Positions 42,386 through 48,632 of a DNA stretch of 64,000 nt are shown here, piece by piece. Numbering within the stretch: position 1 is the stretch's first letter; each line of letters begins with the position of its first letter. The stretch is from assembly GCA_009777615.1 (NCBI GenBank), contig WRLM01000001.1, forward strand, positions 62,001 to 126,000, in the 5' to 3' direction. This DNA comes from Candidatus Methanoplasma cognatum. GTDB lineage: Archaea > Thermoplasmatota > Thermoplasmata > Methanomassiliicoccales > Methanomethylophilaceae. The translations under genes were made by a program, and so were the position numbers. The notes under the pieces are model-generated. The model was not told the origin of the DNA and ran no database searches. It worked only from the letters and a program-made list of their open reading frames with translations.

Positions 42386-42417
42386 GTTGCGGCTCATGCG
42401 CGCTTGCGGGATGCAAC
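42386..42417. repeat. 32-bp direct repeat, copy 2, overlapping the end of hom
   Basis: Identical to copy 1 over all 32 bases, with no similarity in the flanks. It supplies the last eight codons and the stop of hom (VASRKRA), so the repeat has either invaded or redefined the gene end. Confidence 0.85.
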
Positions 42418-43365
42418 TATGCCCCGGGCGATCTCGATCACATCGCCCATGACCGCGCTGGAGGTCGCTCTTCCGCCGGCACCGTGCCCGTAGAACATGG
42501 CATCGCCGATGAAGTTGCCCCGAACGACAATGGCGTTGTACACACCGTCGACAATCGCCAAAGGATCGCTCAGGGGTATGAGCTCGGGAGCAACGGTGCA
42601 ATGGGCCTTGCCATTGATCAGTTTGGCCCGGCCGATAAGTTTGATCACGCAACCGGCGGCCTTTGCTTTTTCCATGTCGTCTGACGTGATATTGCTGATT
42701 CCCGTTCTGTCGATCTTTTCGCTATCAACAGTCTGCCCGAACGCGACCCAGGACAGAATGCTTATTTTTCTGCCGGCGTCATGGCCTTCGATGTCGGCGG
42801 TGGGGTTGTTCTCGGCATAGCCCTTTGCCTGTGCTTCTTTCAGCGCCTCGGCGAAAGGTTTCCCTTCCTCGCGCATCATCGTCAGAATATAATTGGAGGT
42901 TCCGTTCAATATCCCGTATATTTCTGTGATTTCGTTCGCCGCCAGACACTGTTTGAGGGGGCGGATTATCGGAATTCCGCCGCCGACGCTGGCCTCGAAA
43001 AGATAACTGATGTTGTTCTTCTTTGCGATCTCTGTGAGTTCCACGCCGTGCATGGCCACAAGCTCTTTGTTGCTTGTTACGACGCTTTTGCCGCCCATCA
43101 ATGCCTTTTTGGTAAACTCGTAAGCATGGCGAACCCCGCCGATCGTTTCAATGACGATCGATATCGTCGGGTCGTTCATAACGTCATCAAAGTTCTTGGT
43201 CAGCAGCTCCGGTGCGGGGTGATTCTCAAAGTCGAGTATGTCCACTATTTTTTTGACTTTGACCGAATCGCCGACCCGTTTCTCGATCAGTCCGGCATTC
43301 TGAACCGCAACCTCATATGCGGCGGAACCTACAATGCCGAACCCGATTATCGCAATGTTTATCAT
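42394..43365 (-). CDS. hom: Homoserine dehydrogenase, no ACT domain
   Basis: A 323-residue NAD(P)-dependent enzyme that reduces aspartate semialdehyde to homoserine for Thr and Met synthesis. The Rossmann motif is IGFGIVGSAA; the catalytic block is GILNGTSNYILTMM, then YAENNPTADIEGHDAGRK. The protein stops after VMGDVIEIARGI plus seven residues coded by a 32-bp repeat, so there is no feedback ACT domain; many archaeal enzymes also lack it. The ATG at 43365 is preferred over GTG at 43374. A minus-strand TATA lies near 43426-43434. Confidence 0.93.
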   Translation of the reverse strand: MINIAIIGFGIVGSAAYEVAVQNAGLIEKRVGDSVKVKKIVDILDFENHPAPELLTKNFDDVMNDPTISIVIETIGGVRHAYEFTKKALMGGKSVVTSNKELVAMHGVELTEIAKKNNISYLFEASVGGGIPIIRPLKQCLAANEITEIYGILNGTSNYILTMMREEGKPFAEALKEAQAKGYAENNPTADIEGHDAGRKISILSWVAFGQTVDSEKIDRTGISNITSDDMEKAKAAGCVIKLIGRAKLINGKAHCTVAPELIPLSDPLAIVDGVYNAIVVRGNFIGDAMFYGHGAGGRATSSAVMGDVIEIARGIVASRKRA

Positions 43366-43530
43366 GGTACCCACTTCATTTTTCCACTTGCCAAAGCGTA
43401 TTTGCCGACTCTGTATGTGTTTTTGATATATATCGTCTCACTTTTGCTGTCGGGCAGATCTCTGATCCCAACAACCCTACGAATGTTCATGTTTGTTACT
43501 ATCAATGAAGACAAAAAGATCTGATGACAA

Positions 43531-43553
43531 AGCGGGACTGAAGGGATTCGAAC
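43531..43553 (+). repeat. tRNA-Lys 3'-end fragment, site A
   Basis: Twenty-three bases match the last part of tRNA-Lys(CTT) at 47959 onward (AGCGGG-CTGAAGGGATTCGAAC) with one mismatch. It opens a 360-bp non-coding stretch before the first ATPase gene. The following 150 bp also match the stretch after site C, so A and C are ends of a longer direct repeat. Confidence 0.75.
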
Positions 43554-43625
43554 GCAGGCTCTTTAGCTGAAAGAAGTATTCTGAGCATTTTTCTTACAGG
43601 TTCGAAAGTGGCATATGTGGTTTTT

Positions 43626-43712
43626 ATTCGTGGGATATAATAGGGAATTTAACCTATTATTCGTGGTATATAATAGGGAATTTAACCTATTATTCGTGGG
43701 AAGTAATAGTAA
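43626..43712 (+). repeat. 33-bp tandem repeat in the promoter of the first ATPase gene
   Basis: Copies begin at 43626, 43659 and 43692 (ATTCGTGG...), two full and one partial. Each holds a TATA-like tract (TATATAATAG) and an inverted pair AATAGG/CCTATT with eight bases between. The last copy ends about 30 bp before the ATG at 43742. Repeated promoter or operator units are the simplest reading. Confidence 0.75.
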
Positions 43713-43741
43713 TAAATACTTGCTGGCCATTACTTAACATT

Positions 43742-45097
43742 ATGCTGAGAAGAAAGATGACCGATTATCTTATCGAATGGAAGAATAAACCTAAGAAAAA
43801 CTGTCTTCTCGTGAAAGGCCCTCGCCAAGTAGGAAAGACCTTCATCATAGAAGACTTTGCAAAAAAGAACTACGACAATTACATCTACATTAATTTTGAG
43901 ACCATGCCTCAAATGACAGAAATATTCAATGGGAATCTCGATACGGACACATTGGTGAGGGAGTTGAGTTTACATTTCCCATGGGTGAAATTTGAACCCG
44001 GAAACCTTCTGATCTTTTTTGATGAGATACAATCCTGCCCCAACGCACGCGTATCGCTGAAGCCGTTCTCCATTGACGGGAGGTTCGATGTGATCGCTTC
44101 AGGCTCCTTGTTGGGGCTGAATTACAAAAAGGTGTCCTCATACCCAGTGGGATATGAGACAAAGGTAGAGATGCGCTCTTTGGATTTTGAGGAGTTTCTA
44201 TGGGCATTCGGCATAAGTGAAGATGTAATATCATATGTTTCCGAAGCGATCCTGGAAAAAAAGCCGATATCGGATTCAATTTTAAACAAGATGGATGAAT
44301 ATTATCGATGGTATATGATCCTTGGCGGTATGCCAGAAGTCGTGAATAGGTTCTTGGGGACCAATAGTTTTGCCGAAGCCGCTCTGGTGCAGAAGGTGAT
44401 CGTTGATGGTTATGAGGATGACATCTCAAAGTATGCTGCGACAGAGGATAAGTCGAAGATAAGGGAAATACTGCGTTTGATACCCATACAGCTGGCAAAA
44501 GACAATAAAAGGTTCAGGTATTCGGACATATCGTCTTGGAAACAGGGAGAGGGGGCGAGGGAATACGGCAACAGCCTCGACTGGCTGCATGATGCAGGCA
44601 TAATAGACTACTCCTACAATCTTCAAGAACCGTATGCACCGCTGGCAGCGAACCTTAGGTTGAACAGTTTCAAAATATATTTTCATGACACCGGCTTGTT
44701 GATGTCGATGATGGAGCACGGAGTGGCCATTGCGATAAATAATGGGGAGATAAAGGTGAACAAAGGCGCGATCGCGGAGAACATAACTGCCGAAGAGCTT
44801 TCGAAGAACGGCGTCATGCTGACCTATTTTGAGAGGAAAGGCAAGCTGGAATTAGATTTCGTACTCAATCCCGACGGCAGGGTCACGGCGGTGGAGGTCA
44901 AATCTGGGAACAACACGAAGGCAAAGTCGCTTGATTCCGTAATGTCGGAGAAATATGGGGTCGAGAGGGGGATAAAACTGGAAAAGACCAACATATATGT
45001 CGATGAGAAGGGGGTGGAGCATTATCCTTTGTTTGCGGTGGCATTCCTGTTCAGGATCGATATAGACAAACTGATGGTACGCAATGAGCGGGCCTGA
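43742..45097 (+). CDS. AAA ATPase with DUF4143 C-terminal domain, copy 1
   Basis: A 451-residue protein of the AAA_14/DUF4143 family. Walker A is LVKGPRQVGKTFIIEDF (residues about 23-40), Walker B LLIFFDEIQSCPNAR near 90, and sensor ASGSLLGL near 118. The C-terminal part has a PD-(D/E)xK-like pair (ELDFVLN, then AVEVKSGN near residue 380), suggesting a nuclease-like fold. Family members are common in gut prokaryotes and of unknown role. The last codons ERA and the TGA come from a tRNA-Lys fragment (site B). About half-identical to copy 2 by eye. Confidence 0.88.
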   Translation: MLRRKMTDYLIEWKNKPKKNCLLVKGPRQVGKTFIIEDFAKKNYDNYIYINFETMPQMTEIFNGNLDTDTLVRELSLHFPWVKFEPGNLLIFFDEIQSCPNARVSLKPFSIDGRFDVIASGSLLGLNYKKVSSYPVGYETKVEMRSLDFEEFLWAFGISEDVISYVSEAILEKKPISDSILNKMDEYYRWYMILGGMPEVVNRFLGTNSFAEAALVQKVIVDGYEDDISKYAATEDKSKIREILRLIPIQLAKDNKRFRYSDISSWKQGEGAREYGNSLDWLHDAGIIDYSYNLQEPYAPLAANLRLNSFKIYFHDTGLLMSMMEHGVAIAINNGEIKVNKGAIAENITAEELSKNGVMLTYFERKGKLELDFVLNPDGRVTAVEVKSGNNTKAKSLDSVMSEKYGVERGIKLEKTNIYVDEKGVEHYPLFAVAFLFRIDIDKLMVRNERA

Positions 45098-45167
45098 AGG
45101 GATTCGAACCCTTGGCCGATCGATCAAGAGTTGACCGTTCTACCTTCCCGTAGCAGATAGCTGTCCC
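45087..45167 (-). pseudogene. Degenerate tRNA-Lys (CTT), site B
   Basis: On the minus strand the T-arm and anticodon region of tRNA-Lys are recognisable: 27 bases from the 3' end are exact, and the anticodon CTT remains (CTCTTGA). The 5' third is scrambled (GGGGACAGC... instead of GGGCCTGTAGC), so the acceptor stem cannot form. A broken full-length tRNA copy, more complete than sites A and C. It overlaps the end of the first ATPase gene. Confidence 0.8.
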
Positions 45168-45174
45168 CTTCAAA

Positions 45175-45262
45175 AAATTTGTATGCAAAAAAGTGTCATT
45201 TTTAAAAATTTCATACGCAAAAATGCGCTATTTTTAAAAATTTCATACGCAAAATTATGTAT
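45175..45262 (+). repeat. AT-rich 31-32-bp tandem repeat before the second ATPase gene
   Basis: Units start with AAATTT at 45175, 45206 and 45238 and contain TTT(C/G)ATA(C/T)GCAAAA. The third unit runs into TTATGTATATCATG, a TATA-like region about 50 bp before the ATG at 45308. The layout matches the repeated promoter of copy 1, but the sequence differs. Confidence 0.7.
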
Positions 45263-45307
45263 ATCATGTCTTCGTTATATCTATCTGGATATATTCGGAG
45301 GCCGATC

Positions 45308-46633
45308 ATGCTCAAGAGAAAGTTCATGGATACACTTTCGCAATGGAAGAAAGCAAAGAAAAAAGAGTGTCTTTTAGTGAAGGGCGCCAGGCAGGTCGGG
45401 AAGACATTCATCATCAGAGAATTTGCAAAACAGAATTACGAGAACATAGTCGAACTCAATTTCTTTTCTGAACCGCGATACAAAGAGGTATTCGCGGGCA
45501 GCTTAAAAATGGATGAGATCATCAAAAGGATCACTGCCATAGACGGATCCGTACGTTTCGAGGAAGGTAAGACCCTGTTGTTCCTGGATGAGATACAGGA
45601 GTGCGGGGACGCAAGGACCGCTTTAAAATTCATCGCTGAGGATGACAGATTTGACTGTATCGCTTCCGGATCCATGCTGGGGGTTGCATACAAAACAACA
45701 AGGTCCATCCCCGTGGGGTATGAAAGACAAGTGGAGATGTTCTCCCTTGATTTCGAAGAGTTCCTATGGGCGATGGGCTACGATGACACTGCGGTCGGAT
45801 ACATTAAAGAGTATTACGATAAGAAAGAGCGGATTCCCGCATCCAGTAACGATGTGCTGATGGAAAGATTAAGAGAATATGCGATAGTGGGCGGCATGCC
45901 GTCTGTCATCAATATTTACAATGAAACGAAGAACTTCGGGCTGGTTCAAGAAGAGCAGGAGAGGATAATCGATAGCTACAAAAACGACATCGCAAGATAC
46001 CTTTCCGAACCCGAGAAGGTCAAGGCAACCCATTGTTATGAATCCATACCGTCGCAGTTAGCAAAGGAGAATAAAAAATTTCAATATTCCAAGGTTGAAA
46101 AGGGAGCTAGAGCAAGTAAATACGAGAATAGTCTGGACTGGCTCAGTGACGCAGGTCTTATAAAATTCTGCTACAGGGTCCATACGCCCATCTTCCCGCT
46201 GCCTGCATACAGGGATGCTGAACATTTCAAAGTGTATGCGACCGACGTAGGCATATTGAACGCAATGTATGGTTTTGAGATGAAGTCACAACTTTTTTAC
46301 AATACGCTGAAAGGTCCGGCGAAGGGAGGCGTATATGAGAATTTGATCGCCGACTTTTTGATCAAAAAGAAAATCCCCTTGTACTACTACAAACCAGGTG
46401 AGAACAGACAGGAGATCGAATTTCTTTTGACCGAGAAAGGAGGGATCGTTCCTTTAGAAGTCAAAGCGGGGAACGGAAGGACCCCGTCGCTGGATGAGTT
46501 CGTGGAAAGATACGATCCGCAGTACGCACTGAAATTGATCAACGGGAACCTTGGCGTGGAGGGAAAGAAGGTGACGATGCCCCTCTACATGGCAATGTTC
46601 ATCCAGAATCCAATTGATGCAGAGCGGGCCTGA
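45308..46633 (+). CDS. AAA ATPase with DUF4143 C-terminal domain, copy 2
   Basis: A 441-residue paralog of the preceding gene. Walker A is LVKGARQVGKTFIIREF, Walker B LLFLDEIQECGDART, and the sensor ASGSMLGVAYK; the C-terminal nuclease-like pair is EIEFLLT with PLEVKAGNGR. GGAGG six bases before the ATG at 45308 and the match to the start of copy 1 (MLRRK/MLKRK) fix the start. The final ERA and TGA again lie in a tRNA-Lys fragment (site C). Confidence 0.88.
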   Translation: MLKRKFMDTLSQWKKAKKKECLLVKGARQVGKTFIIREFAKQNYENIVELNFFSEPRYKEVFAGSLKMDEIIKRITAIDGSVRFEEGKTLLFLDEIQECGDARTALKFIAEDDRFDCIASGSMLGVAYKTTRSIPVGYERQVEMFSLDFEEFLWAMGYDDTAVGYIKEYYDKKERIPASSNDVLMERLREYAIVGGMPSVINIYNETKNFGLVQEEQERIIDSYKNDIARYLSEPEKVKATHCYESIPSQLAKENKKFQYSKVEKGARASKYENSLDWLSDAGLIKFCYRVHTPIFPLPAYRDAEHFKVYATDVGILNAMYGFEMKSQLFYNTLKGPAKGGVYENLIADFLIKKKIPLYYYKPGENRQEIEFLLTEKGGIVPLEVKAGNGRTPSLDEFVERYDPQYALKLINGNLGVEGKKVTMPLYMAMFIQNPIDAERA

Positions 46634-46650
46634 GGGGATTCGAACTCAGG
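46623..46650 (+). repeat. tRNA-Lys 3'-end fragment, site C
   Basis: AGCGGGCCTGAGGGGATTCGAAC matches the tRNA end with one change. The next 120 bp (TCTGAGCATTTTTCTTACAGG, then GTGGCATATGTGG and a TAGGGAATTTAAC tract) match the flank of site A with a roughly 20-bp gap, so the 3.1 kb between A and C is bracketed by long direct repeats. Confidence 0.75.
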
Positions 46651-46944
46651 CTTCTGAGCATTTTTCTTACAGGTTTGAAAGTGGCATATGTGGTTTTCAT
46701 TCGAGAGATATAGTAGGGAATTTAACTCATTATTCGTGGGATATAGTAGGGAAGTAGGTCTGCTGGCGGAAACGATAAAGATTCAGGGGGACTTGAGGAG
46801 ACTGCATACTGTGGAGCGATATGCGCAAAACTGATTTCAAAAACGGCAAATCATAAAAACATGTAGAATAATGTGTAAGATAATGTGTAAGATATTTAAA
46901 CCGATACGACCATAGGCACGAAGAGGCCATGGAGGCACAAGCAG
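46634..46944 (+). other. Non-coding stretch before fic with promoter
   Basis: Besides the site-C repeat, it holds two copies of AATGTGTAAGAT at about 46868-46892 and a TATA-like ATATTTAAACC at about 46889-46898. GGAGG at 46931 is the ribosome-binding site of fic. No gene is seen. Confidence 0.5.
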
Positions 46945-47928
46945 ATGGGATATATTCCGCCGTTCAGTATAACCGTCGAGATGCTCGATCTGATATCGGA
47001 GATATCGGAGATGCTGGGCAGCATCAAAGGCGTTGAGAACTTAGAGAAATTCCCACGTCTTCGAAGGATCGGTCGCATTAAGACGATACACTCATCACTT
47101 GCGATAGAGAACAATACGCTGTCAATAGGGCAGGTAACGGACATAGTCGACGGGAAACGGATCCTCGGACCACCGGATGAGATATTTGAGGTAAAGAATG
47201 CCATAGCCGCCTACAACGAATTGGAGAAGATCAACCCATTCGATATGAACGATCTTCTGCACGTGCATAAGATATTGATGGAAGGCCTTGTCGAAGAGAA
47301 CGGCAGGCTGCGCACGGTCGATGTGGGAGTATACAACTCCGATGGAAAAAAGCTCCTCACTCCGCCAGGACCGACAATGTTGCCGGGATACATGAACGAT
47401 CTGTTCGAATGGCTGAGGGCCTCAGATGTGCATATTCTCATAAGATCCAGCATATTTCATACCGAATTCGAGCGTATCCACCCGTTCCGCGACGGTAACG
47501 GAAGAATAGGAAGATTATGGCAGACCGCCGTATTGATGAAATGGAAACCCATTTTTGCATGGATACCTGTCGAAAGCATCATTCGCGAACGGCAGACAGA
47601 GTATTACAACACTCTGATGGAATCACAGAAAGGTTCGAATGTGAATATATTCATAGTTTTCATGCTGGAAGCGATACGTGATGCAGTAAAGGCCATAGTT
47701 TCAGACACACAGGCGCACATAGATCACATCGATACAAGAGTACGCCAGCTGATGGCTGTATTGGAAACATATCCCCAGAGTGCGGCAGAATTGATGGAAC
47801 GTTTGAATCTTAAGTCCCGCGATACTTTCCGCAATAACTACCTCAGGCCCGCAATGGAGGCAGGGTTAGTTATGCTTACAGAACCGAACAAGCCCACAAG
47901 CAAAAATCAGAGATATTTCAAAAGATAA
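46945..47928 (+). CDS. Fic/DOC-family protein with C-terminal winged helix
   Basis: A 327-residue Fic protein, which usually transfers AMP from ATP to protein hydroxyls. The catalytic motif HPFRDGNGRIGR is complete near residue 178. The N-terminal helix carries the inhibitory (S/T)xxxE(G/N) motif as SSLAIENN near residue 50, so activity should be self-restrained (class II). A small winged helix (AAELMERLNLKSRDTFRNNY) ends the protein. It is the unit nearest the intact tRNA-Lys. No antitoxin is needed or seen. Confidence 0.92.
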   Translation: MGYIPPFSITVEMLDLISEISEMLGSIKGVENLEKFPRLRRIGRIKTIHSSLAIENNTLSIGQVTDIVDGKRILGPPDEIFEVKNAIAAYNELEKINPFDMNDLLHVHKILMEGLVEENGRLRTVDVGVYNSDGKKLLTPPGPTMLPGYMNDLFEWLRASDVHILIRSSIFHTEFERIHPFRDGNGRIGRLWQTAVLMKWKPIFAWIPVESIIRERQTEYYNTLMESQKGSNVNIFIVFMLEAIRDAVKAIVSDTQAHIDHIDTRVRQLMAVLETYPQSAAELMERLNLKSRDTFRNNYLRPAMEAGLVMLTEPNKPTSKNQRYFKR

Positions 47929-47960
47929 GCTATTGAATTTTGATATCTGACAATAGTAAG

Positions 47961-48034
47961 CGGGCCTGAAGGGATTCGAACCCTTGACCGATCGATTAAG
48001 AGTCGATCGCTCTACCTAGCTGAGCTACAGGCCC
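47961..48034 (-). tRNA. tRNA-Lys (CTT)
   Basis: Acceptor GGGCCTG/CAGGCCC, D-arm AGCTCAGCTAGGTAGAGC, anticodon loop CTCTTAA (CTT), and T-arm AGGGTTCGAATCCCT are intact, with discriminator G. It is the intact member of a set whose 3' ends recur at 43531, 45087 and 46623, and so the likely attachment site of the island to its left. Confidence 0.96.
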
Positions 48035-48146
48035 CGTGCGCCTCTTGATTGCATCATGGTAAATAAAACTGTCTGTTTTGCACTGAGCCACAGAGTACGG
48101 CGATCATCGAATACAAACGCATATATCTTCTGTGGCATATCTGGAA

Positions 48147-48632
48147 ATGATGACAGAACTCAGAGTCAGGGACCTAATGACCACTCAGGTGCTGACTGTC
48201 AAGCCGACAGACACGATAAAGCGGGCTACGATAAAGTTTGCTGTGGACAACACTACCGGCGCGACGGTAGTGGATAACAGGAACCATGTCATCGGCGTAA
48301 TAACCGAGAATGACGTTCTCGGTCTGATCCTAAGATACCAGGACAAACTGGACAGGGACACGAGCCCCCACTCCCTTCTCAGCCTGCCGATGGACGGCGT
48401 CACCGCAGACCCGGCCCTCGCCGAGGCCAACAGGGCGATATCGGAAATGAAGGTCGAAGAGCTGATGACAAGAACAGTTCTTACCACATCCCCTGACGAA
48501 AAGATCGTCGAGGCCCTCAAAAAAATGATGCAGCTCAACGTGAACCGTCTCCCCGTTCTGGAGAAGGGAGTGCTTGTGGGAGCTATCTCGAGATCGGATA
48601 TTATCTTCTACATATACAAGAAAAAGGTCTGA
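48147..48632 (+). CDS. Two-CBS-domain protein
   Basis: A 161-residue protein made of a CBS pair: repeat one about residues 5-70 (RVRDLMTTQVLTVKPTDTIK, VIGVITENDVLG) and repeat two about 95-155 (VEELMTRTVLTTSPDEKI, LVGAISRSDII). Such stand-alone pairs bind adenine nucleotides or SAM and regulate partners. TATA (CATATATC) at about 48119-48126 is 25 bp before the ATG pair, so the message is near leaderless. The metallo-hydrolase gene starts 6 bp after the stop. Confidence 0.85.
   Translation: MMTELRVRDLMTTQVLTVKPTDTIKRATIKFAVDNTTGATVVDNRNHVIGVITENDVLGLILRYQDKLDRDTSPHSLLSLPMDGVTADPALAEANRAISEMKVEELMTRTVLTTSPDEKIVEALKKMMQLNVNRLPVLEKGVLVGAISRSDIIFYIYKKKV

Follow-up and report, generated by a model that had tools for sequence, protein, structure and literature searches.

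Genomic islands bounded by transfer RNA genes, tandem integration at one site and archaeal elements devoid of an integrase are already known (PMC4383910, PMC8371274, PMC6563490), as are integron arrays without an integrase (CALIN) that are mobilised in trans (PMC11389934). Among archaeal defence candidates, those consisting of a single gene belong to the most frequent, and many lie outside known defence islands (PMC12988326), which raises the question of how they move. The locus described here is an array of three single-gene units at the tRNA-Lys(CTT) gene of the methanogenic archaeon Candidatus Methanoplasma cognatum (genome G000; 1.62 Mb in 7 contigs). It lies in the window, a stretch of 64,000 nucleotides comprising positions 62001-126000 of contig C1, within which array coordinates are counted; other G-numbers denote comparison genomes. 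The anatomy of the attachment (att) sites is of a known kind, and the array was very probably built by stepwise site-specific insertion at the 3' end of the tRNA gene.

Anatomy of the array

A BLAST search with tRNA-Lys(CTT) retrieved site A (21/22 identity at 43532), site B (53/58 at 45088) and site C (21/22 at 46624), with genome-wide E-values of 1e-17 for site B and 0.0013 each for sites A and C. All three have the orientation of the tRNA and begin at its 3'-terminal base. The first-pass annotation of this DNA had described three same-strand units of 1556, 1536 and 1336 bp delimited by tRNA-Lys copies, and its coordinates and lengths were confirmed by ARAGORN and BLAST (Table 1). It had also assigned to each unit one gene preceded by its own repeats, in agreement with the Pfam results, which identified AAA_14 and DUF4143 domains in the first two genes and Fic with Fic-like_C in the third. 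The G+C content within the array is 0.37-0.49 compared with 0.51-0.59 in most of the flanks.

Table 1. Features of the tRNA-Lys(CTT) array and its flanks, in window coordinates.
Feature	Position	Strand	Evidence
Homoserine dehydrogenase gene, left chromosomal flank	42394..43374	-	Pfam Homoserine_dh 1.8e-64
Site A, tRNA-Lys(CTT) 3'-end copy, probable oldest boundary	43532..43553	-	21/22 identity, ends at tRNA 3' base
Unit 1 left arm, common to unit 3	43579..43680	+	93/102 bp
33-bp repeats, 2.6 copies, upstream of ATPase gene 1	43624..43709	+	
Unit 1 gene, AAA_14/DUF4143 ATPase, PDC-S01	43742..45097	+	Pfam; PADLOC PDC-S01 2.6e-141
Site B, full-length tRNA-Lys relic	45088..45167	-	perfect over 3' 27 nt
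32-bp repeats, 2.6 copies, upstream of ATPase gene 2	45173..45254	+	
Unit 2 gene, AAA_14/DUF4143 ATPase, PDC-S01	45308..46633	+	Pfam; PADLOC PDC-S01 8e-151
Site C, tRNA-Lys(CTT) 3'-end copy	46624..46645	-	21/22 identity
Unit 3 left arm, homologous to unit 1 arm	46652..46753	+	93/102 bp
12-bp repeats ATAATGTGTAAG upstream of fic	46868..46894	+	
Unit 3 gene, Fic protein, SoFic-like	46945..47928	+	Pfam Fic 3.4e-22; PADLOC SoFic 4e-44
Intact tRNA-Lys(CTT), probable insertion target	47960..48034	-	ARAGORN
CBS-domain gene, right chromosomal flank, next to tRNA-Lys(CTT) in much of family	48132..48632	+	

The match to the tRNA is limited to 22 nt at sites A and C. At site B it extends over the whole tRNA, degenerating toward the 5' end from the perfect stretch at the 3' end, and a similar full-length relic is the tRNA fragment found in G042. 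Both types of site are consistent with crossing over close to the 3' end, the remainder of the relic presumably having been brought along by the element. The stop codons of both ATPase genes are the TGA within GCGGGCCTGA, inside the tRNA-derived core of site B for gene 1 and of site C for gene 2; the end of a different fic gene beside tRNA-Lys(CTT) in G001, read by eye, likewise runs in frame into the core TGA. In several cargo genes the stop lies close to the tRNA end, from 10 bp within the core to 38 bp away from that end, a spacing that random deletion would not be expected to produce. The open frame of the unit 2 ATPase has a possible start as early as 45257.

Beyond the core, the left arms of units 1 and 3 are common, including repeats of the gene 1 type although unit 3 carries fic, and unit 2 has no such arm in common with either. 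The arm was rejected as a general element end, since the 121 genomes contained no other strong match and one weak 42-bp match (G011). Similar iterated repeats precede DUF4143 homologues in other genomes, and visual inspection showed repeats resembling the 12-bp repeats of unit 3 ahead of fic in G057 and G068. The iterated repeats may be operator sites of the genes they precede.

The two ATPases are 43% identical to each other, while gene 1 is 63-69% identical to genes in other genomes, for which reason duplication of one ATPase gene was rejected as the origin of the array. The Fic protein contains HPFRDGNGR, and its SLAIEN sequence is a candidate N-terminal inhibitory motif, from which self-regulation is predicted. 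Both ATPases match PDC-S01 models over the protein length in PADLOC. The Fic protein, which matches the PADLOC SoFic model, falls far below the NCBIfam SoFic equivalog cut-off (57.4 bits vs 550). Considering all genomes, much of the cargo consists of PADLOC single-gene defence candidates (PDC-S01, PDC-S27, PDC-S09 and SoFic-like Fic), and no PADLOC match was obtained for the OmdA-type, AAA_16 and DUF6290 cargo genes. The cargo may have an antiviral role; the PDC families are named candidates for most of which protection is unproven (PMC12988326). Contigs of viral origin yielded two full-length ATPase relatives at 41% identity with one further short match, and one fic relative at 65% that has no tRNA nearby.

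The tRNA-Lys(CTT) locus in relatives and units at other tRNAs

The order of tRNA-Lys(CTT) and the CBS gene is kept in much of the family, and the content on the 3' side varies. Copies of the tRNA 3' end were found 266 bp to 8.2 kb away in ten genomes. Contrary to the refuting case set out in the first-pass annotation, the three genes of the window are not a fixed feature of the locus, where other genes were found in G001, G006, G009, G016 and G042: G006 has a 1558-bp unit with one DUF4143 gene, G009 a 909-bp unit with an OmdA-type gene, G016 an AAA gene and G001 the fic gene mentioned above. The integrase-less insert of G042 is 1310 bp long with one open reading frame (ORF) above 100 aa (219 aa, no Pfam match). 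In G021, from the same genus, the fic gene that flanks this insert sits directly against the tRNA. The comparison of relatives suggested in the first-pass annotation thus provided variant cargo and, in G021 and G042, an empty and an occupied site with the junction exactly at the tRNA 3' end. The homoserine dehydrogenase gene of the left flank has no adjoining tRNA core in G001, G006, G015 and G016.

For each of the 44 tRNA genes identified in G000 and the 44 in G006, the surroundings were searched for copies of its own 3' end anchored at the terminal base. The 3' side held 11 sense copies within 8 kb, whereas the three control classes (sense copies on the 5' side and antisense copies on each of the two sides) gave none, which speaks against chance. 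The corresponding p = 2.4e-7 is indicative, since the score threshold was set after the first survey had been seen, and extending the search to 10 kb brings in one control match with a similar score. Seven of the anchored copies belong to G000, three of them at tRNA-Lys(CTT). The survey of G000 and G006 is the unselected one; genomes with units at other tRNAs were partly found through cargo homology.

The same architecture is found at other tRNAs. Further single-gene units of G006 are located at tRNA-Gly(TCC) and tRNA-Arg(CCT). In G050 (L437:4215-10043), an independent array of four units lies behind tRNA-Arg(CCG). Four 15-bp copies of the tRNA 3' end, two exact and two with one mismatch, bound a DUF4143, an ATPase_2/DUF234, a DUF6290 and a second DUF4143 gene. 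The two closest homologues of the window fic gene are likewise in tRNA-bounded units, of 1274 bp at tRNA-Arg(CCG) in G057 and of 1643 bp at tRNA-Leu(CAG) in G068. The fragment bounding the G057 unit is 22/23 identical to the tRNA-Lys core, as judged by eye, vs 20/23 to the tRNA-Arg, suggesting that this cassette may have brought a Lys-type core with it. Outside the archaea, a metagenome-assembled genome of Tenericutes (L331:5457-7186) has a fic gene, 45% identical, in a 1654-bp unit at its tRNA-Lys(CTT).

Genes of the DUF4143 type at tRNA-Ser(TGA) in G000, tRNA-Pro(GGG) in G009 and tRNA-Ser(CGA) in G065 were not counted for want of a convincing second fragment. The first of these (L128:656-2163) starts right behind the tRNA 3' end and has no second tRNA fragment; the C-terminus of the encoded protein resembles that of the G006 cassette protein. 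At tRNA-Gly(TCC) of G000 (C5:109486-113330), a 3'-end copy lies 3.4 kb off with two unknown ORFs between, and just outside this region is the sole integrase-family match of the genome.

Insertion and the proposed source of the integrase

Integrases directly adjoin tRNA-Lys(CTT) in relatives. Those of G019, G040, G053, G069 and G070 belong to one family, 57-95% identical, and G005 and G037 have an integrase of a second type in this position. The elements of the first four genomes are bounded on the far side by a 14-18 bp repeat of this tRNA end. The element of G019 (L082:12766-18049) encodes a replication-like protein, a type II restriction enzyme and the integrase and is a candidate helper element. 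None of the genes sampled in the integrase-bearing elements at tRNA-Lys(CTT) was of the DUF4143 or Fic type. The window array was evaluated by translated search with eight queries taken from close to tRNA genes in relatives, namely seven integrases and one G055 frame that is not an integrase, and with one fragment. In line with the first-pass annotation, no trace of an integrase was detected at E 0.1, nor was one detected in the units of G006, G009, G016, G042, G050, G057 and Tenericutes. The tyrosine recombinase at tRNA-Lys that the annotation proposed to look for was found in the relatives and not in the window array, which also contains no integrase piece of the kind left by a split, SSV-type integrase.

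The motif CCAGA/TCTGG occurs within 45 bp outside the tRNA-Lys(CTT) end at 17/38 loci, with or without an adjoining integrase, compared with an average of 2.8 in more distant windows. The associated p = 4e-10 is optimistic because the count was made after the motif had caught attention and because some of the 38 loci are related. The motif is possibly an integrase binding site.

The proposal that the units were inserted one by one at the tRNA 3' end, each insertion restoring the tRNA, is well supported by the observed geometry and polarity of the sites, the variable cargo of relatives, the G021/G042 pair, the G050 array and the integrases. On balance, the units are probably non-autonomous integrative cassettes for which a tyrosine integrase is supplied in trans. 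Each cassette would consist of one defence-type gene with the repeats that precede it and, as attachment site, a copy of the tRNA 3' end. An integrase from another element would recombine this site, presumably on a circular intermediate, with the 3' end of the chromosomal tRNA. Each insertion would rebuild the tRNA from the cassette copy and push the old 3' end outward, and the order of acquisition would therefore be unit 1, unit 2 and then unit 3 next to the tRNA. Recombination in trans is favoured by the near-uniform one-gene size, the cargo abutting the core, the lack of integrase traces and the presence of the same gene types at many tRNAs. Several results weigh against it. PF00589 has one match in the whole of G000, a 118-aa frame on another contig, and therefore the helper is absent now or was missed. 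Decaying integrases are present in G055 and G068, neither a circular form nor excision was observed, and no empty site was found for the locus of the window itself. In addition, units of 3.4 and 3.8 kb in G000 hold several ORFs, hence not all units are single-gene.

The main rival to movement in trans is loss of the integrase after insertion, whereby the units arrived in larger elements with their own integrase, and this and other genes were later deleted while the defence gene was kept between the att sites. Such an origin is the published account of integrase-less archaeal elements (PMC8371274), and such loss is documented in two relatives: in G055 (L098:13954-18530) an integrase-like N-terminal part and a 36-aa C-terminal piece, the latter remaining at the tRNA, are separated by radical SAM and dehydrogenase genes, and in the fic unit of G068 (L277:2394-4124) a short piece of a tyrosine integrase (E 1e-4) remains, located between fic and tRNA-Leu(CAG). 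It is nonetheless the less likely of the two accounts, given that neither the window array nor the units of the six relatives searched above retain a trace, that the units cluster near the size of one gene (about 0.9-1.9 kb) and that the cargo types differ from those sampled in the integrase-bearing elements. Homologous recombination between existing cassettes, for example by placing fic behind an arm of the unit 1 type, could have built part of the array, as indicated by the arm and repeats common to units 1 and 3 and by the module exchange proposed for tandem elements (PMC8371274). Unit 2 has no part in that arm, and the G042 insert and the G050 array need none, so that this contribution appears quite improbable; it would in any case modify site-specific insertion and not replace it. 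The alignment of site B with the whole tRNA would be expected of old tandem tRNA duplications between whose decaying copies unrelated genes later fell. That origin was rejected as extremely improbable because the similarity of sites A and C to the tRNA ends abruptly after 22 nt and other tRNAs show the same pattern, on the 3' side only. Furthermore, in relatives the copies are either missing or differently spaced and accompanied by other genes, and the G021/G042 pair shows a single clean insertion.

Comparison with described systems

Tyrosine-integrase islands at tRNA genes (Islander, PMC4383910; PMC8371274; PMC6563490) resemble the array in having the intact tRNA at one end and a displaced 3' fragment at the other, and in insertion into the 3' part of the tRNA, in tandem at one site. 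The window units differ in the absence of an integrase and in their content of one gene each in 1.3-1.6 kb. They are likewise unlike the cryptic elements of Thaumarchaeota, which span 2.6-98 kb and in which the integrase is the most conserved gene (PMC6563490). Phage satellites and other helper-dependent elements, including tycheposons (PMC11389934), have in common with the units the movement by a helper that is proposed here; the units contain no packaging, replication or integrase gene. The cargo is related to described families, the ATPases to PDC-S01 and the Fic protein to SoFic (PADLOC; PMC12988326), and the text of the archaeal defence survey never mentions tRNA or integrase (PMC12988326). 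The open literature searched, which misses most subscription journals and preprints, yielded neither a description of defence arrays at archaeal tRNAs made of single-gene units without an integrase nor a paper combining DUF4143 with archaea.

Insertion at tRNA ends may be a travel route of small immunity genes, because similar single-gene inserts are present at other tRNAs in related archaea and in at least one bacterium. The tRNA-bounded units are a concrete and testable candidate vehicle for single-gene defence genes. They have a simple signature, in which the 3' end of a tRNA recurs 0.5-2 kb beyond it on the 3' side, that could reveal more such genes without protein homology, and the order of an array would double as a record of the order of acquisition. 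More tentatively, it is possible that tRNA 3' ends are the docking sites of a dispersed cassette system in which tRNA-targeting tyrosine integrases move and stack integrase-less single-gene defence units in trans. If true, this system would parallel in archaea the cassette pool of integrons, extending to bacteria, and would be a vehicle of the abundant candidates PDC-S01, S27, S09 and SoFic-like Fic.

The array was called integron-like in the first-pass annotation, a description that holds as an analogy only, the sites being plain tRNA 3' ends. As in CALIN (PMC11389934), single-gene units are arrayed in one orientation, each with a recombination site, and an integrase from outside would be needed. 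The window array differs from CALIN in that its recombination sites derive from the tRNA, each unit has its own upstream repeats and insertion takes place at the tRNA.

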